Part shown: positions 3,879-24,658 of the stretch, piece by piece
How the letters are laid out: each line of letters begins with the position of its first letter
Numbering within the stretch: the stretch's first letter is position 1
Virus record (IMG/VR): IMGVR_UViG_3300027759_000303
Location: 1-29,999 of that record
Strand: one strand, 5' to 3'
Length of the DNA stretch: 29,999 bases
Source of the DNA: a virus
Position numbers and translations under genes: made by a program
The notes under the pieces: model-generated
Seen by the model: the letters and a program-made list of their open reading frames with translations, nothing else
What the model was told of the DNA's origin: nothing
Database searches by the model: none

Positions 3879-4186
3879 TCGTCGTCGTTGGGTTCGCCGC
3901 GAATTTCAGCAAGTTGATCTTCTAGGTTTTCCATAATATATGCCTTTGCCATTGCTTCAATTTCAAAAGTTAGAAATTTTGCAGGCTCAAAATATTCATG
4001 AGGCTTATCGTAATAACTGACGACAAAAATGTGTGTCTCGTCGAGGCGCCCATTTTTAAAATGTTGCTCTTCAACTAGGCGCCACTGTGAAGTATCACGA
4101 TGCTCATTGGCGGAAAGGATGGCCAGTGCCTTCATCACCCCAATGCCTTCTTCTTCTTCCTCTATAACCCGTACATACTCGCTCAT
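3875..4186 (-). CDS. Hypothetical acidic protein
   Basis: A 103-aa acidic protein beginning MSEYVRVIEEEEEG and ending in a run of Asp (GEPNDDD). The centre 'WRLVEEQHFKNGRLDE' followed by 'THIFVVSYYDKP' reads like a small beta-sheet domain. The second half 'FLTFEIEAMAKAYIMENLED' is helical. I do not recognise a family. It is convergent with the Xre gene (4-base overlap of the stops) and lies downstream of the DUF6496-like gene. A weak AGGA lies close to the ATG. Codon use and CAATGG content match the surrounding phage genes. Function unknown. Confidence 0.6.
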   Translation of the reverse strand: MSEYVRVIEEEEEGIGVMKALAILSANEHRDTSQWRLVEEQHFKNGRLDETHIFVVSYYDKPHEYFEPAKFLTFEIEAMAKAYIMENLEDQLAEIRGEPNDDD

Positions 4187-5721: not shown

Positions 5722-6868
5722 TTGCAATGGGAAGTAATGTCATAATGCGGCCATCAAAGTCTTTCCGCAGGGATGCTTCAATGTAGTCCGCAAAGTTATG
5801 AGCAAGAATAATTACTGTATCGTAATCTTTCAACGCGCTTCTATCAACCACTTGAAATCCAGTGCCTGGAACATAGAGCCCTTGCTTTTCAACAGTGTCG
5901 TCTACGACTACTGTTTTACCCATCGTATTAATATTCAAATTAAGAGCATTCAAGAATACACAACCCTTTGCTGCAGCGCCAAAGAAACAAATCCTTCCAA
6001 GTTCTTTTGTGGCAAGAATGCGATCAAAGTAACAACGCAAATCAGCAATAGTTTGATCAAAATTGCATAGATCAACTGCTTCTTTCTCTTGCTTTTTGAT
6101 TACGGACAGGTCTATTGCCCGTGCTCCAAGTTCTTTGTTTGTCATCCAAAGTCGCATTGTCCCCCCATGAATAACCTGAGGGAAGAGGGCAATAATTCTC
6201 AAGCCATATTGCTTAAACAGTGTTTCCAGCGGGGAAATGAGCCAGTAATAATAATGCTCATGGTAAAATTGATCAAACTGGCCAGTGGTAATAGTGTCTA
6301 AGGTGTAAGGAAATTCCAAAATCCATAGGCCATCTAAAAACTTAACGATGCCACCCATGAAGGCATGAATATCTTTAGTGTGTTGAAATACATTAGTGGA
6401 AACAATTAAATTTGCTTTTGGCAAATCCATTTGATCATTAAATTGTCCACACACAAATTCATTACCCGCCTGCTCATTAACTTCTCGCAGGTTCTGCCCC
6501 ATGTCTACATTAATAAAGCGCGTTGGCTTTATTCCACTCCAAAACTCGTTCTCTGCGGATGCCTCACGAAAGGCATTCAACAGTGTTCCATCATTGCCGC
6601 CCACGTCAATAATTGTGGGCAAATTGAGATGGTAAATACTTTTGTATAACGCTTTGCAATGATCAATGTACGGCTGACTTACTCCGCTCCTGTAGAGATA
6701 ATGCTTGTACAGAATTTCTGGATCTACTGCATGGTCCAAATGGATCGTCAAATCCTCTTCAACAACAGCCTTCAATGGGAACTGTTCCGCTGCCATTGAC
6801 TCTTCCTTGCTGCTACACAAATTGTTTACCAATGGCTGGGTGCCCAAGTCAAGGATGGTTTTGGTCAT
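5711..6868 (-). CDS. C-methyltransferase-like protein without zinc-binding cysteines
   Basis: A 385-aa protein laid out like the sugar C-methyltransferase family (TylCIII/NovU type; Methyltransf_13, _23 and _14). 'ILDLGTQPLVNNLC' matches the 'LG.qPlaN' box; 'PTIIDVGGNDGTLLNAF' is SAM motif I; 'YHEHYYYW' is the conserved 'HEH..y' catalytic-region box; the C-terminal Rossmann part has 'RICFFGAAAKGCVFLNAL' and 'VVVDDTVEKQGLYVPGT'. The four zinc-ribbon cysteines usual at the N-terminus are absent: the protein starts after the first pair and the second pair is replaced by 'AVVEEDLTIHL'. Probably modifies an NDP-sugar or glycan; activity uncertain given the loss. Confidence 0.75.
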   Translation of the reverse strand: MTKTILDLGTQPLVNNLCSSKEESMAAEQFPLKAVVEEDLTIHLDHAVDPEILYKHYLYRSGVSQPYIDHCKALYKSIYHLNLPTIIDVGGNDGTLLNAFREASAENEFWSGIKPTRFINVDMGQNLREVNEQAGNEFVCGQFNDQMDLPKANLIVSTNVFQHTKDIHAFMGGIVKFLDGLWILEFPYTLDTITTGQFDQFYHEHYYYWLISPLETLFKQYGLRIIALFPQVIHGGTMRLWMTNKELGARAIDLSVIKKQEKEAVDLCNFDQTIADLRCYFDRILATKELGRICFFGAAAKGCVFLNALNLNINTMGKTVVVDDTVEKQGLYVPGTGFQVVDRSALKDYDTVIILAHNFADYIEASLRKDFDGRIMTLLPIANDK

Positions 6869-15497: not shown

Positions 15498-15571
15498 GGG
15501 CGCTGCTGGGAATCGAACCCAGGATTCCATGCTATGAGCATGACGTGTGCCAACACTTCAGAGCCAGCGAC
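15498..15571 (-). tRNA. tRNA-Met-like gene (anticodon CAT), odd D arm
   Basis: On the minus strand a 74-base cloverleaf can be drawn. The T arm is perfect (CTGGG-TTCGATT-CCCAG). The anticodon arm TCATG-CTCATAG-CATGG places CAT at 15536-15534, giving Met (or Ile if the C is modified). The acceptor GTCGCTG/CAGCGCC pairs at six of seven positions. The 3' CCA is not encoded. The D arm is abnormal: the canonical stem does not form, and the best local stem is GTGT-TGGC-ACAC. It lies between the phosphoesterase and ribonucleotide reductase genes. It may be a functional phage tRNA or a degenerate one. Confidence 0.65.
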
Positions 15572-15625
15572 CTCCTTGTTTGAGCATTGTTAAGAGGCTT
15601 AGGAGGTGTTGCCGTTAATATAGCA

Positions 15626-16429: not shown

Positions 16430-17863
16430 TTATTCAGCACAACTACTGCAAAAGCCAACATCTAAAGGGCAGGCTTCAGTGTCGTCCTCTAAGTTGAAAA
16501 AGTCATTCAGACTCTCTCCCAATTCTACACCAACGCTATCCTTCGCTTGTGTGCCACTCTGCACTTGAAGAGCGTAATACATAGAAGTTTGAGGACTGTC
16601 TAGCCACTCCTGCAGGAAATTCCTATCGCAAATTACTAGGTCTGACCAAAAATTCATGGAATAGCCATGGAATAAGCCAGTTTCTTGATATAAGGAAACA
16701 ATGCCGTCCGCTACTCTGCGGAATGATTTCCAACCCACTTCCTCAGCAATTTCCACTGCGCCATATTCAAAACGCTCTACGCCCATGGTTTCGCTGTCAC
16801 GATCAACAATGCGATCAATGGGAGGCGCAATTTCAGGCGTTGTAGTAAAGCCTTTCTTGTCGAGATAGCGATAGGAGCATGAGGCTGTGGGAGCAATGCA
16901 GAAAGCACGGTCCATGCCATAGCCACGAGCTACTGCCGCTGCATCTTCAATGGCATTGTCAAGCTTCCACACGATTTGACCTGCAATGGTATCAAACCAT
17001 TTGGTTTCCCAAGCACGAAGATCATCGCTTAGGTAAGCCTCAAGGGCTTTGCCAAAATCTTCATACGACACGCCTTGATTAGCTAAGAAATTGGCTAAGC
17101 CCAACATGCCTAGTCCCACTTGCTTATCAATGGCAGGGGAAAGATATTCGCCAGTGTCGCCCACGCCCGTAGAAGGGTGAAGCTGGCAAAGCTGCTCCAT
17201 GCCCTCTACAAAGGCATTTGACAAATCGTCAATGCCGCAAGCGCCCATATTTACATGCTGCAGCAAGCAAGTGCCACGATGGGGCAAATATACTTCCAGG
17301 CAAACATTGGCGCGAAGACGATTGCCATTGTCGTCATAGCGAATCTTATTTAACCAGACGTCGCCAGAGCTAATGCCTTGCAGCAAAGCATCAATTAGCT
17401 CAGGAGAAGAATCTTTCAGGAAGTTGTCATCTACATTCAAGCAGCGCTTAGTCCATGGCAGTTCTTTCCTGGAAGCCTTAATAAAATCCAAAGCATCAGG
17501 ATGCGTATAGTCAAGATGCAAAACTACAGCACCATTCTTATACTTTCCTCCGCGACGAAGGATTTCATTAAGCGTTGAATAAATCTTGCCGAAGCTAACA
17601 GGACCACTTGCAACTAAGCCTTTGCCATTCTCTTCTCCCTTCCCACGCAAGTTAGAAAGATGAATGGCAACGCCCGCACCATTCCGTAGCCCGTGGGATA
17701 CAAAGCGCCAGGAGTCTTCAATGCCACTGGCTCCTTCCATTGAGTCCTCGACTACGAAGACCGTGCAGCTAACGGGCAAACGACCATCAGCATCATCCAT
17801 CCAACTTTCAACCCTGCCAGTGCGTGCAATCTTGTCGCACCTTGCGTTTTCCTTGAGATTCAT
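16430..17863 (-). CDS. nrdA: Ribonucleotide reductase large subunit, minimal form
   Basis: A 477-aa catalytic subunit. Cys33 in 'LPVSCTVF' and Cys199 in 'HRGTCLLQ' would be the redox pair; 'ANVCLEVYLP' gives Asn186, the thiyl Cys188 and Glu190; 'NGAGVAIHLSNLRGKG', 'SGPVSFGKIY' and 'RRGGKYKNGAVVLH' are substrate-barrel boxes; 'APTASCSY' matches the phosphate-binding loop; 'MYYALQVQSG' carries the radical-transfer Tyr pair; the tail ends 'CSSCAE'. There is no ATP-cone and almost no N-terminal domain, so allosteric activity control is missing; cellular enzymes are about 750 aa. The ATG at 17863 follows a terminator-like hairpin by 12 bases. A GTG at 17905 would read through that hairpin and is rejected. 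Confidence 0.88.
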   Translation of the reverse strand: MNLKENARCDKIARTGRVESWMDDADGRLPVSCTVFVVEDSMEGASGIEDSWRFVSHGLRNGAGVAIHLSNLRGKGEENGKGLVASGPVSFGKIYSTLNEILRRGGKYKNGAVVLHLDYTHPDALDFIKASRKELPWTKRCLNVDDNFLKDSSPELIDALLQGISSGDVWLNKIRYDDNGNRLRANVCLEVYLPHRGTCLLQHVNMGACGIDDLSNAFVEGMEQLCQLHPSTGVGDTGEYLSPAIDKQVGLGMLGLANFLANQGVSYEDFGKALEAYLSDDLRAWETKWFDTIAGQIVWKLDNAIEDAAAVARGYGMDRAFCIAPTASCSYRYLDKKGFTTTPEIAPPIDRIVDRDSETMGVERFEYGAVEIAEEVGWKSFRRVADGIVSLYQETGLFHGYSMNFWSDLVICDRNFLQEWLDSPQTSMYYALQVQSGTQAKDSVGVELGESLNDFFNLEDDTEACPLDVGFCSSCAE

Positions 17864-17875
17864 GAGACAACAAAA

Positions 17876-17891
17876 GGGGGCCACAGCCCCC
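17876..17891 (-). terminator. Terminator-like hairpin just before nrdA
   Basis: On the minus strand GGGGGC-TGTG-GCCCCC is followed by TTTTGTTGTC, a strong intrinsic terminator shape. It ends the 122-aa gene's transcript (stop at 17931), yet the nrdA ATG lies only 12 bases after the stem. Either nrdA transcription starts inside or after the hairpin, or readthrough is regulated. Confidence 0.7.
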
Positions 17892-17930
17892 CTCAGAACG
17901 AACACTTCCTACTGTAACCCAGATCCAATC

Positions 17931-19047: not shown

Positions 19048-19569
19048 ATGCCCGACATTGCTGCTTCTCTGACGGGCGTTGTGCTGACCAAGCAATGCAC
19101 TGTTTGCCGGAGAGAACTGCCAGTAACAATGTTTTACAAAAAATCAAGCGCCAAGGAGAGCCGGAAATCTTTTTGCAAGAAATGTGACAATAAGCGCAGC
19201 GCTCAATATAAAAAACAAAACCCAATACTTGTCCAAACTTGTCAAATGGTAGACCGGGCCAAGCGAAGGGCTGCCGAGAAACAATTAAGCTTTGATATCG
19301 ATACTAAATATGTGCGCTCACTTGTTGTTTTGCATTGCCCAGTTCTGGGAATGCCTTTGGAGTGGTCGTGCCGAAGAAATGTAGGCAATATTGTCTTGGA
19401 TGGAAGCCCATCGCTAGATCGCATTGATCCAACAAAAGGCTATGTCAAGGGCAATGTATGGATTATTAGTTATCGAGCTAATTTAATAAAAAACAATGCT
19501 ACGCACGAAGAATTAAAGCTTGTGACAAAAGCAGTAGGTGAAGCAATTGTTAAATCATTAGAGTTTTAA
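19048..19569 (+). CDS. HNH-family phage endonuclease with zinc-finger N-terminus
   Basis: A 173-aa protein. The N-terminus has paired cysteines 'CTVCRRELP' and 'SFCKKCDNKRS', a zinc ribbon. The C-terminus carries 'PSLDRIDPTKGYVKGNVWII' followed by 'SYRANLIKNNATHEEL', a segment characteristic of a large group of phage proteins annotated as HNH endonucleases related to endonuclease VII. It stands alone, rightward among leftward genes, with its own promoter, and sits at the edge of the abnormal-composition island. These are the usual marks of a homing-type mobile endonuclease. Active-site residues beyond the D-R-I-D box cannot be confirmed by eye. Confidence 0.75.
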   Translation: MPDIAASLTGVVLTKQCTVCRRELPVTMFYKKSSAKESRKSFCKKCDNKRSAQYKKQNPILVQTCQMVDRAKRRAAEKQLSFDIDTKYVRSLVVLHCPVLGMPLEWSCRRNVGNIVLDGSPSLDRIDPTKGYVKGNVWIISYRANLIKNNATHEELKLVTKAVGEAIVKSLEF

Positions 19570-19881
19570 TGCGCTCACTCCCCATCGTCCATGTTCAATC
19601 GTTCGCGCAGTCGCGACTAGCTTTACGCGCAATTAGTGACAATTACAAACGTGGTAGTAAATTTACGAACAAAAAGGTAAAAACCGGATGAAAAATGGTG
19701 TCGTATTTTTTACAGGATGCCCACCGCCCCTTCGGCCATAATTGCCGGGTTACTGCGCCAGACTAGCATCGGATTGGCAAACATTCTGTATCGGTTGCTA
19801 CAGTTTGACAAAAATATACATTAGCAACGCTAATAGTTGACTCTAAAGGTCGGGATTGACCCCCAACCAAGCACAACAAAA
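19570..19881. other. Gene-free stretch downstream of the endonuclease
   Basis: No open frame with coding character was found on either strand. The stretch is AT-rich in its centre and holds the candidate promoter/dyad at 19805-19833 and, at its right end, the terminator of the leftward operon. A weak hairpin CGGC-CATAATT-GCCG lies near 19735. No terminator was recognised for the rightward endonuclease gene. Confidence 0.4.
19805..19833 (+). promoter_or_regulatory. Candidate promoter with overlapping dyad
   Basis: A consensus TTGACA lies at 19805-19810. A weak GCTAAT-type -10 follows 18 bases later, within the inverted repeat TTAGC-AAC-GCTAA (19821-19833). If used, it would transcribe rightward, antisense to the end of the island operon. 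The poor -10 keeps confidence low. Confidence 0.3.
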
Positions 19882-19902
19882 GGCCCCCACTGCGGGAGGC
19901 CC
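19878..19902 (-). terminator. Intrinsic terminator of the island operon
   Basis: On the minus strand GGCCTCC-CGCAGT-GGGGGCC forms a stem of about seven pairs with one G-T, followed by TTTTGTTGTG. It begins 24 bases after the stop of the 51-aa gene, so it closes the leftward operon that comes out of the island. Confidence 0.7.
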
Positions 19903-19925
19903 TAAACAATCAGCACAGCCTGCGA

Positions 19926-20081
19926 TCAATTAATGAACCATCGGGGCTCGATAAGCTCCCATGGTTCGCCCATATAATTTTCGATAAGATCGATCAATTC
20001 GGTATCATTACAGGACGCTAGGTTATCGCTCAAAAGTTCTAGGTAGGCTTTAATTACGTCGGCGCGGTTGACTAGTTTCAA
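19926..20081 (-). CDS. 51-aa protein at the end of the island operon
   Basis: Found by reading the gap: TTG start at 20081, stop at 19926, product MKLVNRADVIKAYLELLSDN continuing to a C-terminal 'YMGEPWELIEPRWFIN'. It is a normal, non-repetitive sequence (helix then an acidic 'TELIDLIE' helix), unlike the genes upstream. The biased island begins within a base or two of its start codon, so an original N-terminus may have been lost or replaced. The TTG has no Shine-Dalgarno. A terminator 24 bases past the stop supports a real transcribed gene. Family unknown. Confidence 0.6.
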   Translation of the reverse strand: MKLVNRADVIKAYLELLSDNLASCNDTELIDLIENYMGEPWELIEPRWFIN

Positions 20082-20145
20082 GGGAGAGGGAGCGGAGGAG
20101 AGGAGAGGAGAGGAGAGGGGGCCCGGCTTAGCAAGCCTCGAGGGA

Positions 20146-20337
20146 TCAGTTAAGGAGGCGCTCGCGAGCTTCTCGAGAGGAGGAGAAAGGGAGGCGAGGA
20201 GCGAAGGCTTCGAGCTCTTCGAGAAGGGAGGAGAGGAGCTCTTCTTCGCGGGAGCTTTCGGGAGAGAAGCTTTCGAGAGCGAGGAGGAGGAGAAGCGCTT
20301 CGAGCTCAGAGAGGCGAAGGCGAAGGGAGGCGCTCAT
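20146..20337 (-). CDS. 63-aa Leu/Glu/Ser/Arg protein in the island
   Basis: Starts MSASLRLRLSELEALLLLLA and ends 'SREARERLLN'. Apart from Met1 and the last Asn it uses only Leu, Ser, Glu, Ala, Arg, Phe and Pro, just what the restricted dinucleotides allow, so coding status rests on context. Its ATG overlaps the GP88-like gene's TGA as ATGA, the usual coupling in this genome, and its end lies 64 bases before the 51-aa gene. If real it is a pair of amphipathic helices. If not, it is an accidental open frame in stop-poor DNA. No ribosome site. Confidence 0.45.
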   Translation of the reverse strand: MSASLRLRLSELEALLLLLALESFSPESSREEELLSSLLEELEAFAPRLPFSSSREARERLLN

Positions 20338-21458
20338 GAGAGGCCACCGAAGCGAGCGAGGCCTCCTCCCGCGAGCTCTTGCCAGTCAGAGGAGGGAGCA
20401 AGAGCGAAGCGAGAAGCGGCCGAAGGATCAGCGCCTCTCGAGCGCTTGAGGCGAAGCATCACGGCAAGGCCGGAGAAGCCCGCTCGAGGCGCGCGGTCCA
20501 ACATGCGAAGGTCGTTGAGATCCCCGTCTATGCAATCAAGGAGAGCGGGAGCTTCGCCTTCGGCCTCGAGGAGAAGGTTCGAAGGGAGAGGCGCGCCTTT
20601 CGGGAGAAGGATGGGCACAGCAAGAGAGAAGCCATGGCGAACCGCTTCGAGCGCGCGCCTTGCTCCTCCGGGATTGTCTGCAGCAAGAGAAGCCGTGGTG
20701 TGAATCCCGGCCTCTCTCATGGCGAGAAGGCGAGGGAGAGGAGCTTTCGCGTAGTCATATAGCGAAAGCCCGCGAACGTTCCGAAGCGCTTCGGGGATTG
20801 TGACTGTTCCCGAAGGTATGGGGCTTCCATAAAGGCGAGAAAGGCCGAGCGCCTCCTCCTTCGAGAGGCGCGCGCTCATGAAAGGCTCATGCCATGGAAG
20901 TTCTTGAGTGCCATTCCCGCGAAAGGCGAAAGGGAGGCGAAGCTTTCGCGCCTTTCTCATGGCGAGGCCTCCTCCCCATAGGAGGGAGCGGATAAAAAGC
21001 TCGCGATTGGCGAGCATGGCAAGCATGCGACGAGCGCGGCACTGGCCAGGCACTGTGGAAAGCCCTCCATGGCCAGAAAAGGCAAGGCAAAGCTCCTCAC
21101 AAGAGGGAGAAGAAAAGGCGCAAGCATTAAAGAGGAGCGCGCGCTCGAGGAGGCCTTCGCGTATTGCAAGCTCCCGAAGGCCGGGGAGCTCGCCTCTCAC
21201 GTTGCAAGCATGAGAAGAAGGAGTGAGTGCTCGCGCGAGGCCTTTCGCGGGGAGCATATGAAGAAGCGAGGAGAAGGCGAGGCCTCTCCCTTTCGCGAGC
21301 TTCGCATTGGAGTTCCCGCTCGTGAGAAGGCCGGGGATCGAAAGGCCGAAGCGGGAGAGAAAGGCCGAAAGCTCGCGAGGAGAGCGAGGCGCGCTCGAGC
21401 GAACCGAAGGAGGAGTGAGAAGCGAAGGAGGAGCGAGAAGAAGAGAAGAGGAGGCCAT
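20334..21458 (-). CDS. GP88-like protein in the island
   Basis: A 374-aa protein whose scattered conserved boxes resemble the GP88 family (mycobacteriophage gene product 88, function unknown): 'LLTSGNSNAKLAKGRGLAF' with 'LHMLPAKGL' (44-74), 'SPSCEELCLAFSGHGG' (117-132), an Arg-rich helix, 'FRGNGTQELPWHEPF' (179-193), 'LSLYDYAKAPLP' (231-242), 'TTASLAADNPGGARRA' and 'CIDGDLNDLRMLD' (309-321). These boxes are written with dinucleotides otherwise avoided around them, while the joining sequence has drifted to Leu, Ala, Ser, Arg and Pro. This argues for a real, selected gene. The first 40 residues are low complexity. The stretch before the ATG is CTTCTTCTC, with no Shine-Dalgarno. Confidence 0.7.
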   Translation of the reverse strand: MASSSLLLAPPSLLTPPSVRSSAPRSPRELSAFLSRFGLSIPGLLTSGNSNAKLAKGRGLAFSSLLHMLPAKGLARALTPSSHACNVRGELPGLRELAIREGLLERALLFNACAFSSPSCEELCLAFSGHGGLSTVPGQCRARRMLAMLANRELFIRSLLWGGGLAMRKARKLRLPFAFRGNGTQELPWHEPFMSARLSKEEALGLSRLYGSPIPSGTVTIPEALRNVRGLSLYDYAKAPLPRLLAMREAGIHTTASLAADNPGGARRALEAVRHGFSLAVPILLPKGAPLPSNLLLEAEGEAPALLDCIDGDLNDLRMLDRAPRAGFSGLAVMLRLKRSRGADPSAASRFALAPSSDWQELAGGGLARFGGLS

Positions 21459-21504
21459 GAGAAGAAGAGAAAAGAAGGAGAGAAGAGAAGGAGAGCGAAG
21501 CCGG

Positions 21505-21783
21505 TCAGGAAGGAGGGAGAAGCCAATCGAAGAGGAGGAGCTCGAGCTTCTCGAGCTCTTCGCTCACGTAGGTTCGGCTTTCTATATGAGCGCGAAAGTA
21601 GGAGCCTGCAGCATCAGAGCAAACGAGAAGCCACACATCACCCTCATAAAGCAGCACGGCCTGAGGAGGAGCCTCCTCGAGCGCGAACGTGTCAATTGTG
21701 CCGGGATGCATGCGCTCGAGCTCTTCGAGCGAACCGAGGCGCCTTGAGAATTTCCAGAGAGCGAAAGGAGAGAGAGAAGCCAT
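21505..21783 (-). CDS. 92-aa protein in the island
   Basis: Begins MASLSPFALWKFSRRLGSLE. The middle, 'MHPGTIDTFALEEAPPQAVL' then 'LYEGDVWLLVCSDAAGSYFR', uses His, Thr, Ile, Asp, Val, Tyr, Trp and Cys, residues whose codons need the avoided dinucleotides, so it looks like a true protein core (probably a small beta domain) flanked by drifted ends. It lies between the coiled-coil gene (27 bases upstream) and the GP88-like gene (46 bases downstream), in the same direction. Upstream of the ATG is TTCTCTCCC, with no Shine-Dalgarno. No family recognised. Confidence 0.6.
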   Translation of the reverse strand: MASLSPFALWKFSRRLGSLEELERMHPGTIDTFALEEAPPQAVLLYEGDVWLLVCSDAAGSYFRAHIESRTYVSEELEKLELLLFDWLLPPS

Positions 21784-21810
21784 GGGAGAGAAGGCGAAGA
21801 AGAAGAAAGA

Positions 21811-22245
21811 TCAGCGAGCGAGGAGAGGCCAGCGAACCTCTGCCATGAGCTCCTCGAGCTCTTCGAGGGAGGCCTCGAGGCGAGCGCGAAGCTCCTCGCG
21901 CTGATCAGCAAGAGCGCGAAGCTTCGAAGCGCTCGCGCGAAGCTGATCGACCAATGCGGCAATGCTTCGAGCGCTTGAGGCGAGGCGAGGCTCCCGCTCG
22001 AGAGCGAGGAGCGCTGATTGCGCATCCCTTTCGAGCTCTTGCGCATCAGAGCGAAGGGAGAAAGGCGAGGAGCGCTCCTCAAGAGCGAGGAGATCCCTCT
22101 CGAGGAGAAGCGCGAAAGCTTCGGCCTCCTCAAGAGAAGAGAAGGAGGTCTCTGGCCATGAGAGCTCACCGGGGAGGAGAGGCGAAGGCGAAAGGCGAGG
22201 AGCGCGAGGCGCGCGCTTCTCACCGGGGAGGAGAGGCGAAGCCAT
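21811..22245 (-). CDS. Coiled-coil protein, first gene of the island operon
   Basis: A 144-aa protein. The first 35 residues are Pro/Leu/Ser-rich with a repeated 'PLLPGE' motif. Residues 36-135 are a long amphipathic helix: 'LEEAEAFALLLERDLLALEE' early on and 'SIAALVDQLRASASKLRALA' with heptad spacing later, ending 'ELMAEVRWPLLAR'. It is a plausible phage coiled-coil protein, but the composition is partly dictated by the island, so the coiled coil could be a by-product. It leads the leftward operon. Upstream CTTTCTTCTC gives no Shine-Dalgarno. The hairpin region 22268-22386 would form its 5' leader or an RNA antisense to it. Confidence 0.5.
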   Translation of the reverse strand: MASPLLPGEKRAPRAPRLSPSPLLPGELSWPETSFSSLEEAEAFALLLERDLLALEERSSPFSLRSDAQELERDAQSALLALEREPRLASSARSIAALVDQLRASASKLRALADQREELRARLEASLEELEELMAEVRWPLLAR

Positions 22246-22267
22246 GAGAAGAAAGGAGCGAAGGCCT

Positions 22268-22386
22268 CCCCATATAAAGGCTTCGAGGCGCCTTTATGGG
22301 GACCTGATCAGGCATCCTGATCCTTTCGGGCAATATTGCCCATTGATAAGCGGCTAAGCTGATGAGTGCCCGATTGCGGGCTTTTT
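22268..22386 (+). ncRNA. Candidate four-hairpin RNA ending in a terminator
   Basis: Rightward, in the leader of the leftward island operon. H1 pairs CCCCATATAAAGGC (22268-22281) with GCCTTTATGGGG (22290-22301), with a two-base bulge. H2 is GATCAGG-CAT-CCTGATC (22306-22322). H3 is the perfect palindrome GGGCAATATTGCCC (22328-22341). H4 is GCCCG-ATTG-CGGGC (22368-22381) followed by TTTTT. Compact hairpins plus terminator, opposite a leader, are what antisense regulators of plasmid replication look like. No convincing rightward promoter was found, so transcription is inferred. Confidence 0.45.
22368..22386 (+). terminator. Intrinsic terminator (GCCCG-ATTG-CGGGC-TTTTT)
   Basis: A five-pair GC stem with a four-base loop and a run of five T, rightward. 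There is no rightward gene upstream for 2.8 kb, so it must end a non-coding transcript or readthrough from the candidate promoter at 19.8 kb. Confidence 0.65.
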
Positions 22387-22410
22387 GATCAGCCAGGCTG
22401 ATGGGTCGAA

Positions 22411-22517
22411 GGGAGCGGGGAGGAGCGGGGAGGAGCGAGGAGGAGCGAGGAGGAGCGAGGAGGAGCGAGGAGGAGCGAGGAGGGAGCGAGGAGGGAGCGA
22501 GGAGGGAGAGAAGGAGA
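22411..22517. repeat. Purine minisatellite, 10-11 bp unit
   Basis: Tandem copies of a 10-bp unit AGGAGCGAGG (about six to seven, the first two as AGGAGCGGGG), then two to three copies of an 11-bp form with an extra G. The plus strand is almost pure purine with single C residues at fixed spacing. Such tracts can form triplex or G-rich structures and slip during replication. It lies between the candidate RNA and the iteron array. Confidence 0.8.
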
Positions 22518-22537
22518 GCGATAAACAAGAGCTCACG

Positions 22538-22702
22538 GGTGAGCTATATTTAGTGCCCCTATAGGTGAGCTATATTTAAAGGCGCCGCGAGTAGGCTATT
22601 CCACACCTTGAAGGTAGGGTATATTTAGCGCTCCGAGAGTAGGGTATATTGTACGGCGATTAGGTAGGGTATATTGTACGGCTAGCAGGTAGGGTATATT
22701 TA
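22538..22702. repeat. Iteron-like array, seven repeats of about 25-bp period
   Basis: GGTGAGCTATATTTA at 22538 and 22564, a decayed copy AGTAGGCTATT at 22590, then AGGTAGGGTATATTTA at 22612, AGTAGGGTATATTGTACGG at 22638, AGGTAGGGTATATTGTACGG at 22662 and AGGTAGGGTATATTTA at 22687. Spacing is 26, 26, 22, 26, 24 and 25 bases, all in the same direction. The spacing and conserved core GGTATATT are what is expected of protein-binding iterons at a plasmid or phage origin, or of a tandem activator site. No gene lies in the array. Confidence 0.75.
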
Positions 22703-22797: not shown

Positions 22798-22882
22798 GCC
22801 GGACCCTATACGCCTCCAGCCGGGTCTTGATACATTCCCAGCCGGACCCTATACGCCTCCAGCCGGACCCTACAAATTTCCC
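22798..22882. repeat. Four tandem 21-22 bp repeats
   Basis: Units start with GCCGG at 22798, 22819, 22841 and 22862. Units 1 and 3 are identical (GCCGGACCCTATACGCCTCC plus A), unit 2 is diverged, and unit 4 keeps GCCGGACCCTA then runs into the 3' end of the methyltransferase gene (stop at 22870). One further AGCCGGACCCT lies at 28800-28810. The function is unknown; binding sites or a recombination scar are possible. Confidence 0.7.
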
Positions 22883-23421
22883 CATTGAATTGCCATTGCA
22901 TCTGCAATTCCTTGATAAGTACGGCTTCTTTCCTTCCACCGATTGGGACTAGGTGTCATTCGATGCACTTTTGCTTCTCTTCCTTCAACAATATTAGTGG
23001 GAACGAGTTTAGGCAAGTTTTTTAACCATAAACAAGTTGCCTTTGTTTCACCATGGCCAAATTGCCAAGGTTGTATAATTTGACCAGGCTTGCGAATGCG
23101 AGAGGAAATAATACTAACGGGATTTTCCAAAGCAATACGATCAATAGGAGCATTTAGCAATAGACGCACAAAGTCCAGTGCTTCAATCTGCTCTGCTTGT
23201 TTATCTTTAAACCATCGTGCGCCACTAACTGCTAAATGTGTACAGGGAGGGTGAGCAATCATTAAATCAAATCCATTGTTGATAATGTCGCACACATCTC
23301 CTTCGTAGTGAGGGCCTGGTCTTTCGCTGGGCAGCAAGTCGCAACTAATGGCATTGTGTCCTTGCTCGATAAAGGCATCGCGTACCACTCCCGAATATTC
23401 GCAGGCCACTAATACCTTCAT
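22870..23421 (-). CDS. Phage DNA cytosine-methyltransferase-like protein
   Basis: A 183-aa protein of a widespread phage family usually annotated as a DNA cytosine methyltransferase. It begins MKVLVACEYSGVVRDAF (SAM-binding loop), then 'DLMIAHPPCTHLAVSGARWF' with the Pro-Cys catalytic loop, 'RIALENPVSIISSRIRKPGQ' (the ENV-like motif as ENP), 'PWQFGHGETKATCLWLKNLP' and a conserved 'HRMTPSP' region. There is no separate target-recognition domain, so specificity is unclear; it may modify phage DNA against host restriction. The ATG at 23421 overlaps the preceding stop as ATGA, which fixes the start. It is the last of six coupled leftward genes. Confidence 0.75.
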   Translation of the reverse strand: MKVLVACEYSGVVRDAFIEQGHNAISCDLLPSERPGPHYEGDVCDIINNGFDLMIAHPPCTHLAVSGARWFKDKQAEQIEALDFVRLLLNAPIDRIALENPVSIISSRIRKPGQIIQPWQFGHGETKATCLWLKNLPKLVPTNIVEGREAKVHRMTPSPNRWKERSRTYQGIADAMAIQWGNL

Positions 23422-23597
23422 TTGTGCAGTTGCCAAGGCGAATCCCAGCCAATACCGTTTTCAGCGGCAAGTATAGCATCATCTTCATCATCAAACGGAC
23501 CTCCCATGCCTTCCCCATCGTCCTCATACCAATACCAGCCTTCCACGATTTCTGTGCCCTTGCAGCACGTTTCAGAAAAGAAATCAATGATAATCAT
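23418..23597 (-). CDS. 59-aa acidic protein
   Basis: A short gene found by reading the gap. It starts MIIIDFFSETCCKGTEIVEG, continues 'WYWYEDDGEGMGG' and a run of Asp/Glu, and ends 'GWDSPWQLHK'. GGAG lies seven bases before the ATG, and both ends overlap neighbours by four bases (ATGA), so it is clearly translated as part of the coupled series. It is strongly acidic and aromatic, like DNA-mimic or small inhibitor proteins of phages, but that is only a resemblance. No family recognised. Confidence 0.75.
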   Translation of the reverse strand: MIIIDFFSETCCKGTEIVEGWYWYEDDGEGMGGPFDDEDDAILAAENGIGWDSPWQLHK

Positions 23598-23926
23598 GAA
23601 AAGTCTCCAACAATGTAATCAAATGGGCCATTGCCATGGCCAATGCAGCGATCATCAAGCTCATGCCTGCAAGAATTCACGTCCCTGTTCCATACAACAG
23701 TAAAGAATTCACCAGGGTCAATAATCCTGCCATATTCATCCCGTATGGTGTAATTAAATTCATAAACAAGTTCTTCAATGTATTCCCACATGGATTGCCA
23801 ATCTTTTAGTCCGGCTTCTGGGTAAACATGCAAGCCAAAGCACCATCCTTGTGAACTCTTGCCCAAATGCTCAACTGCTCCCCATTTGCAAGACTCAGAA
23901 GTATGCAGATAGTAGTTGGTGCTCAT
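23594..23926 (-). CDS. Conserved phage hypothetical protein
   Basis: A 110-aa protein starting MSTNYYLHTSESCKWGAVEH. 'MSTNYYLH', 'HLGKSSQGWCFGLHVYPEAG' and 'DEYGRIIDPGEFF' recur in a widespread phage/bacterial family of unknown function that opens with M-S-T-N-Y-Y-L and has a 'iGKSs.GWcFsLh' core. GGAGG lies four bases before the ATG at 23926, which also overlaps the preceding stop as ATGA. The product is compact, aromatic and probably globular. It is a middle member of the coupled leftward series. Confidence 0.75.
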   Translation of the reverse strand: MSTNYYLHTSESCKWGAVEHLGKSSQGWCFGLHVYPEAGLKDWQSMWEYIEELVYEFNYTIRDEYGRIIDPGEFFTVVWNRDVNSCRHELDDRCIGHGNGPFDYIVGDFS

Positions 23927-24177
23927 ACGTCCTCCACAAGCAGCCAGCAAGGCTCGTAAGCATCGAGAAAGTCTATCTGCTCCTCTTCGGTGGTAGGCCA
24001 GTCGCTACGCTCCGCCAGCAGGATTGCAGCCTTGCATACGGCACTACCATGCTCTTCTTCGTAATCACTGTGATCCCAATGCCACGAATTCACTGTGAAA
24101 TTATCAACAGTGGCCTTGACGCTCAACACGTCGCTATCAGGGTCGATGGACCAATCAAGAATGGAAAGAACGCTCAC
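23923..24177 (-). CDS. Hypothetical protein, GTG start
   Basis: An 84-aa protein beginning MSVLSILDWSIDPDSDVLSV, with a beta-like first half ('VLSVKATVDNFTVNSWHWDH') and an acidic helix ('AAILLAERSDWPTTEEEQI') then 'YEPCWLLVEDV'. The start is GTG at 24177, overlapping the preceding TGA as GTGA, with GAGG about eight bases upstream. Its stop overlaps the next ATG. The acidic, tryptophan-rich make-up is like its neighbours in the coupled series. I recognise no family. Confidence 0.7.
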   Translation of the reverse strand: MSVLSILDWSIDPDSDVLSVKATVDNFTVNSWHWDHSDYEEEHGSAVCKAAILLAERSDWPTTEEEQIDFLDAYEPCWLLVEDV

Positions 24178-24470
24178 TGGAGGGCCTCACAGAGAATCTT
24201 GAACAGCTTAGGGCTGGAGCCATCAGGCCGGTATTGCGCATAAGCATTAGGGCCTCTGTTCCAACCGCCTTCGCCATCGCTATCAACGTCTGGCTCGTTC
24301 TGCCAAATGCCAATGCAGGCATCATCGTGGAAAATGCCAATGATGTCCTCCCCATCGCTCATTGCTAGGCGGCAATGGAAAAGAATGTCCTTAAGGCGTG
24401 CAGCTTGATAAGAACCGCAAGAAGCATCAAAATACGGGCCGTTGTCAGTGAAAGTGCGGATGGTAATCAT
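24174..24470 (-). CDS. Hypothetical protein
   Basis: A 98-aa protein starting MITIRTFTDNGPYFDASCGS, with 'RLKDILFHCRLAMSDGEDII' and 'IFHDDACIGIW' forming a strand-turn-strand core, an acidic 'EPDVDSDGEGGWNRGPNA' loop and a C-terminal helix 'SPKLFKILCEALQ'. GGAG lies seven bases before the ATG, and the preceding stop overlaps it as TGATG. It is the second gene of the coupled leftward series. The 'GIFHDD.CIGIW' type strand pair is typical of small phage alpha/beta proteins, but no family is assigned. Confidence 0.7.
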   Translation of the reverse strand: MITIRTFTDNGPYFDASCGSYQAARLKDILFHCRLAMSDGEDIIGIFHDDACIGIWQNEPDVDSDGEGGWNRGPNAYAQYRPDGSSPKLFKILCEALQ

Positions 24471-24658
24471 CAATCGTCTCCAATAATGCAAAAATCAGGA
24501 TCATTGTCTTTTTTAATCCATCGACACTGATTAGTGCCAGGAATCACAATAAACATCTTGTCATGGTGGTTTTGTTCCACTATTGCCATAGTTAGCTTTT
24601 TACCAATGCGGCTTTTACCTTTGTCGCTGATAGCAATGATGTTGATGATGTCTTGCAT
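24470..24658 (-). CDS. Hypothetical protein, start of coupled series
   Basis: A 62-aa protein MQDIINIIAISDKGKSRIGK continuing 'MAIVEQNHHDKMFIVI' and 'NQCRWIKKDNDPDFCIIGDD'. It looks like a small all-beta fold, Ile-rich with a basic patch in the first half and acidic end. Its ATG lies eight bases after the preceding 43-aa gene, with a weak GAG at seven bases. Its stop shares a base with the next ATG (TGATG). It may bind nucleic acid (KGKSRIGKK), but no family is recognised. Confidence 0.65.
   Translation of the reverse strand: MQDIINIIAISDKGKSRIGKKLTMAIVEQNHHDKMFIVIPGTNQCRWIKKDNDPDFCIIGDD

Follow-up and report, generated by a model that had tools for sequence, protein, structure and literature searches.

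At one locus in a group of phages of aquatic cyanobacteria, a DNA-level rule overrides codon choice in every phase, reshapes the composition of the encoded proteins and varies between related phages. Ordinarily, what shapes coding DNA is pressure from proteins, codons and mutation. The locus was found in a 29,999-base virus record of a tailed phage (the window, i.e., the whole stretch of DNA that was analyzed), where an island at positions 20082-22516 is packed with the trinucleotide GAG and its reverse complement CTC; related phages carry islands built from other words at the same place. As a tentative explanation, we favor selection on the duplex DNA for a short word that would be read by a putative DNA-acting protein, beside a putative origin.

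The TerL and portal proteins of the window phage are 64% and 67% identical, respectively, to those of the cultured Synechococcus phage S-CBS4, and the gene order of the window is co-linear with that of S-CBS4. Judging from the host of this relative, the window phage probably infects a picocyanobacterium. The carriers of the locus are a group of viruses of aquatic cyanobacteria, the S-CBS4-like phages (given by L numbers where they must be told apart); no relative was found in the bacterial genomes searched.

Signature, borders and genes of the island

The features of the locus, in window coordinates, are as follows.

16430-17905, minus strand: nrdA, the syntenic anchor of the locus
19048-19569, plus strand: HNH/endonuclease VII-like gene, flanking the locus in many relatives
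19926-20081, minus strand: gene E, 51 aa, normal composition, with its TTG start at the border; 94% identical in L076
20082-22516: word-packed island of the GAG/CTC dialect, a four-gene minus-strand operon plus a GA-rich array at either end
20146-20337, minus strand: gene D, 63-aa ORF within the island (ORF reading)
20152-20307: strict core, with zero of the six dinucleotides named below across 156 bases
20334-21458, minus strand: GP88 homologue, 374 aa (phrog_1617, E = 1.7e-16)
21505-21783, minus strand: gene C, 92-aa ORF within the island; the overlapping stretch 21527-21810 has no family match
21811-22245, minus strand: gene B, 144-aa protein, with a 73% identical copy in L004/L031
22412-22516: 10-bp tandem array, GGAGCGAGGA x10.4 with 92% matches, at the right border
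22612-22700: 25-bp iteron-like array (GTAGGGTATATTGTACGGC...), just upstream of the operon
22870-23436, minus strand: small DNA-methyltransferase-like gene (phrog_757), adjoining the island

The dinucleotides AC, GT, CA, TG, AT and TA account for 331 of the 2434 steps in 20082-22516 (13.6%) vs 36.0% in the rest of the window, and their count never fell below 651 in 1000 mononucleotide shuffles of the island; as a sequence-only reading of this DNA had held, the signature goes beyond GC bias. The same reading had called the six dinucleotides nearly missing. This is true of AC, GT and TA (plus-strand odds ratios 0.18, 0.30 and 0.29) and of core stretches; CA and TG are merely reduced (0.63 each), and the depletion of AT is slight after correction for composition (0.89). 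The stretch 20153-20307, in which no such step was said to occur, is indeed free of them and belongs to a run, 20152-20307, that is the longest of its kind in the window. An erasure of stop codons was also claimed: there are none in 20153-20307, and the island overall is only 60% thinned (80 stop codons in six frames, where the density in the remainder of the window predicts 203). The loss of stop codons is a side effect.

Both borders are sharp. On the left, 5-10 six-dinucleotide matches per 20 bp are seen until 20079 and then 0 and 0, with the border at the TTG start of gene E and thus, as noticed at the outset, within a base or two of a normal gene; on the right, the transition at ~22516-22520 is as abrupt. 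The rule is strand-symmetric, in accordance with the earlier suggestion that it acts on the duplex (AC is depleted about as much as GT and CA as TG, and GAG and CTC are enriched with similar z values), and within GP88 the three codon phases are depleted alike (56, 59 and 61 of about 375). Long ORFs exist on the opposite strand of the island, and the phase-independent depletion speaks against an overlapping-gene constraint. Rfam and tRNA searches gave no match inside the island.

Tandem arrays precede most islands, with units mostly of 20-25 bp, and our guess is that the iteron-like repeats are an origin. The phrog_757 methyltransferase was not found at the relatives' loci examined, which speaks against it as the setter of the dialect. 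Elsewhere in the window, a GC-rich inverted repeat, AGGCCCCCACTGCGGGAGGCCCT, lies downstream of gene E (19881-19903) and is possibly a terminator, and a match to the abiF RNA family (51 bits, 15570-15606, minus strand) adjoins a tRNA-Met gene at 15498-15565.

Membership of the GP88 family appears weak in the window copy, which scores 21.4 bits against Pfam GP88 (PF17338; cutoff 24.4), and clear in the L010 orthologue, which at 43.2 bits exceeds the gathering cutoff of 24.4. An AlphaFold2 model of GP88 (pLDDT 78.5, pTM 0.81) matches other GP88 proteins in a structure search. Foldseek against the PDB gave weak barrel-like (enzyme) matches, none at E <= 0.001, and a PDB sequence search with GP88 gave no match.

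Words and dialects

The density of CTC plus GAG is 122 per kb in the island vs 25 outside. When GP88 was shuffled synonymously, with protein and codon usage held constant, the top trinucleotides in other lineages were CTC (z 23.9) and GAG (z 22.3), and the leaders in the window lineage were GAG (9.2), TCG (7.5) and CTC (7.4); in backbone genes, CTC and GAG show no effect (z -1.9 to 1.2). It should be noted that z alone is not to be over-read, because other, ordinary backbone trinucleotides (GCA, TTG and CAA) reach z 9-13 in larger sets. Vocabulary size is a cleaner measure: the number of distinct 6-mers lies 8-16 SD below synonymous shuffles in GAG/CTC islands; in most islands of other dialects the deficit is about 7 to 11 SD (only 2.8 in L093), and for backbone genes its median is 2.4 SD. 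The choice of the third codon base follows the first base of the next codon, completing the word across the codon border; in NCx codons followed by C, x is T (giving CTC) in 75% of cases vs 35% in control genes. Codon usage alone is rejected as an explanation, since the packing is phase-independent and goes beyond synonymous shuffles, and the joint shift of both words of each reverse-complement pair points to duplex DNA. The attractor is the duplex trinucleotide GAG/CTC, and the six-dinucleotide rule is mostly its by-product; the gap seen in the window stems largely from the dense use of GAG/CTC and words like it. The packing bends the encoded proteins: residues under weak constraint have shifted toward amino acids with fitting codons (L, S, A, R, E, P and G), and strongly conserved motifs retain off-word codons.

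Looking for the signature in metagenomes had been proposed as a check. Searches by GP88 recovered 28 contigs of independent metagenomic origin (59-100% identity in GP88), all with the signature in the GP88 region and with ordinary DNA in the remainder of the contig. Two relatives, of 70 and 75 kb, each carry a single island; in the former, CTC plus GAG reaches 57-95 per 500 bp in the island vs about 13 elsewhere. Across the group, islands are 2-4.5 kb long and ~60-70% GC vs ~49% in the backbone, and every dialect found is GC-rich. Anchoring on nrdA yielded 80 loci, and among those reaching that far, many share the gene order o24174 - repeats - island - HNH - nrdA.

More distant relatives use other dialects at the same locus (GGCC/CCTG, CTCGCC/GGTGG and TTCGC/GCCG), and some of their loci are ordinary. 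At 47-49% GP88 identity, islands are GC-rich with other words, and the GP88 genes of this group (L088/L075 and others) have z values of +7.7 for TG, +4.1 for CA and -10.5 for CG. The initial formulation of the rule, as six forbidden dinucleotides or purine/pyrimidine blocks, fails on these relatives, whose words at the same locus include TG- and CA-rich ones. At 25-30% GP88 identity, most of the loci are ordinary, and in L065 CTC and GAG are enriched in two genes (z 6.2/6.0) with GP88 absent. Packing therefore follows the locus, not the gene, and GP88 was rejected as its cause. The window and L076 have different dialects and a GP88 identity of 44%, between flanks that are 86% (23461-24647) and 90% (19860-20124) identical, so that the island has been exchanged as a block. 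In several pairs GP88 is similar and nrdA divergent, or vice versa. Because locus and gene family are shared, several dialects occur and some sister loci are ordinary, the group provides a clean natural experiment for identifying a DNA-reading or DNA-writing process.

Other odd sequences lie at these loci. Fur-box-like sequences (GATAATGATTCTCA) and AGTAC..GTACT palindromes are found directly upstream of islands (L017 3348-3420, L088 581-600 and L093 3928-3945); an 18-bp array, ACGCGCGCACGCGCACCC, mostly of alternating purines and pyrimidines, adjoins the L004 island (3978-4097) and is another odd repeat class at the same locus; and L099, where the locus has no GAG/CTC island, carries repeats of the CATATGGG type together with a tract of CTTT repeats at 5800-6150 and 6730-6800.

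The S-CBS4 record (NC_016766, L045/L044; linear, 69,420 bases) has no island. Its ends (69416-69420 and 1-6) map to the two sides of a 6.8-kb stretch in the 70-kb relative that holds repeats and the island and is unrepresented in the 'complete' S-CBS4 record. The locus may be missing from the record, or the ends of the phage may lie there. Genome records may thus lose word-packed loci: this one stops on both sides of the locus. Separately, S-CBS4 gp086 (L045:26648-27376), annotated as 'RNase E', matches a LuxR-type HTH and gives no match to an RNase E domain; the annotation is likely wrong.

Selection, recombination or mutation

Divergence was compared between fourfold sites able and unable to form CTC/GAG in nine close pairs, which are partly dependent (L017 occurs twice). 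Differences were found at 188 of 1122 word-capable sites and 194 of 761 incapable sites, a ratio of 0.66 (Fisher p 5e-6); control words gave ratios of 0.86-1.30 and nrdA 0.84, and CTC/GAG was the lowest among the words tried. A pure bias toward the word would produce equal or faster turnover, whereas the observed slowing is predicted by selection or by a mutational coldspot. An odd mutational process or escape from an enzyme, as originally proposed, may still be at work, but the slowing fits selection or a coldspot better than plain mutational bias.

Word selection would act on the duplex for word density. The putative reader, encoded by phage or host, would serve in replication, recombination or packaging, and the island would be a dense landing zone next to the putative origin; a shift in the specificity of the reader, or a swap with another phage's island, would change the dialect. 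For this tentative explanation speak the density, the shuffle z values, the equality of codon phases, the context-dependent codon choice, the low 6-mer vocabulary and the slow word-capable sites. The packing of L065 without GP88 and the normal composition of gene E, the next ORF on the same strand, count for word selection bound to the locus. Against it count that no reader protein was found, that a coldspot at the word would likewise slow divergence, that a trinucleotide would make a very short target for specific landing, and that 16-mers are reused within islands 2.6x as often as between them, which trinucleotide selection alone does not predict; counted here too is that substitutions between L003 and L004 are transversion-rich (ti/tv 115/170 vs 166/79 in nrdA), which could reflect another process. 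An extended form, which we regard as possible though on the improbable side, would make the island a lineage watermark: the word would be read by the phage's own replication/recombination machinery, reader and dialect would co-evolve, and the operon would be a swappable cassette whose proteins are bent.

The strongest rival to word selection is homogenizing recombination, a serious possibility that we nevertheless doubt. Here, an annealing recombinase would pair island strands non-allelically and copy short tracts, and common words would spread by conversion drive into lineage dialects. S-CBS4 encodes a Sak-like protein and an exonuclease, and lineage dialects and the block swap between 86-90% identical flanks are in line with such concerted evolution. 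Exact repeats of at least 16 bases are 2.6x as frequent within as between islands of the same dialect (1.8x for 14-mers and 1.4x for 12-mers); because long exact repeats are enriched in this way, non-allelic copying may contribute. Word reuse stays nearly level over distances from 12 bp to 4 kb, as expected if copies anneal anywhere; since it hardly decays with distance, and the closest GP88 pairs have no gaps, local slippage was rejected. Mismatches are clustered in close GP88 pairs, but some control nrdA pairs cluster equally. Against concerted evolution, most word sharing is also found between different phages of the same dialect, and the closest pairs, besides being gap-free, differ mainly by isolated point changes (in L017-L020, 49 of 55 difference runs are single-base).

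Context-dependent mutation, or escape from a mutagen targeted to the locus such that unhittable words accumulate, is unlikely. Strand symmetry, phase independence and sharp borders would suit it, as would the amino-acid divergence, 3-4x higher in GP88 than in nrdA across the three pairs with the closest backbones; in these pairs, however, fourfold divergence is not clearly raised (0.32-0.38 in GP88 vs 0.27-0.32 in nrdA). The dialects differ by transversions, so that a deaminase cannot explain them, each lineage would need a new specificity, and we know of no mutagen whose reach stops at either end of an operon.

Mimicry of GC-rich host DNA, or a codon use like that of the host in an early operon, with word reuse arising incidentally, seems more unlikely still. 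All dialects are GC-rich, and the words of L088/L075 resemble plain high-GC codon use, but the vocabulary shrinks beyond what codon use gives, the GAG/CTC packing is context-dependent, and the window GP88 lacks CTG altogether and rarely uses GTG or ACC. A constraint at the RNA level, whether from mRNA structure or from the need to avoid endoribonuclease sites, is very unlikely. The island covers nearly an entire run of co-directional genes, and its folding is a little stronger than that of synonymous shuffles (z -0.1 to -5.3); the effect is mild, however, with z -0.1 in L011, and antisense strands mostly shift likewise, and RNA structure was rejected as the driver. AC and GT are equally depleted, which RNA cleavage would not require, and gene E, which follows immediately downstream on that strand, has a normal composition. 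The 'RNase E' of S-CBS4 was rejected as the selector, given its LuxR-type HTH match and the islandless record. Avoidance of restriction sites was likewise discarded, palindromes being enriched in the window lineage (z 7.0 for 4-mers and 9.8 for 6-mers), not depleted. An assembly or sequencing artifact is barely conceivable, and misassembly is excluded, because 28 contigs from many metagenomes share the signature at 59-100% protein identity with conserved reading frames.

Comparison with known systems

GP88 phage proteins (PF17338, phrog_1617) form the family of the central island gene, and their most distant members sit at the same locus in mostly ordinary DNA. Chi and other polar recombination or replication words are short, enzyme-read and favored in coding DNA; they are genome-wide and orientation-biased, whereas the island word stands on both strands in a single island. 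Slippage-born cryptic simplicity reduces the short-word vocabulary of coding DNA and predicts short-distance clustering and indels; the island shares the reduced vocabulary, but its word reuse hardly changes from 12 bp to 4 kb and its closest pairs are without gaps.

HIP1 (GCGATCGC) and the alternate HIPs are over-represented GC-rich words of cyanobacterial genomes, swapped for other words in some lineages; a proposed mismatch-repair drive ties them to DNA methyltransferases (PMC4390886). The island resembles them in its GC-rich over-represented words and in their replacement between lineages. HIPs, however, are 8-bp palindromes spread genome-wide, whereas the island has a short word at extreme density in one locus of 2-4.5 kb; CTC/GAG is unenriched in backbone genes, with a single island per genome rather than a HIP-type genome-wide frequency. 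The phrog_757 methyltransferase of the window, a possible counterpart of the HIP-linked enzymes, has no match at the relatives' loci examined. The DNA uptake sequence (DUS) of Neisseriaceae likewise has lineage dialects, under selection by the reader protein ComP (PMC3630211). DUS words are longer and of moderate genome-wide density with ComP as reader, whereas the island has a trinucleotide core, one locus and a putative reader; the slower word-capable sites fit selection of the DUS type but also a mutational coldspot. HIP1 and the DUS dialects are the closest precedents for lineage-specific words, and neither is confined to one locus or so dense; a literature search on phage word islands or cryptic simplicity in phages found nothing relevant.
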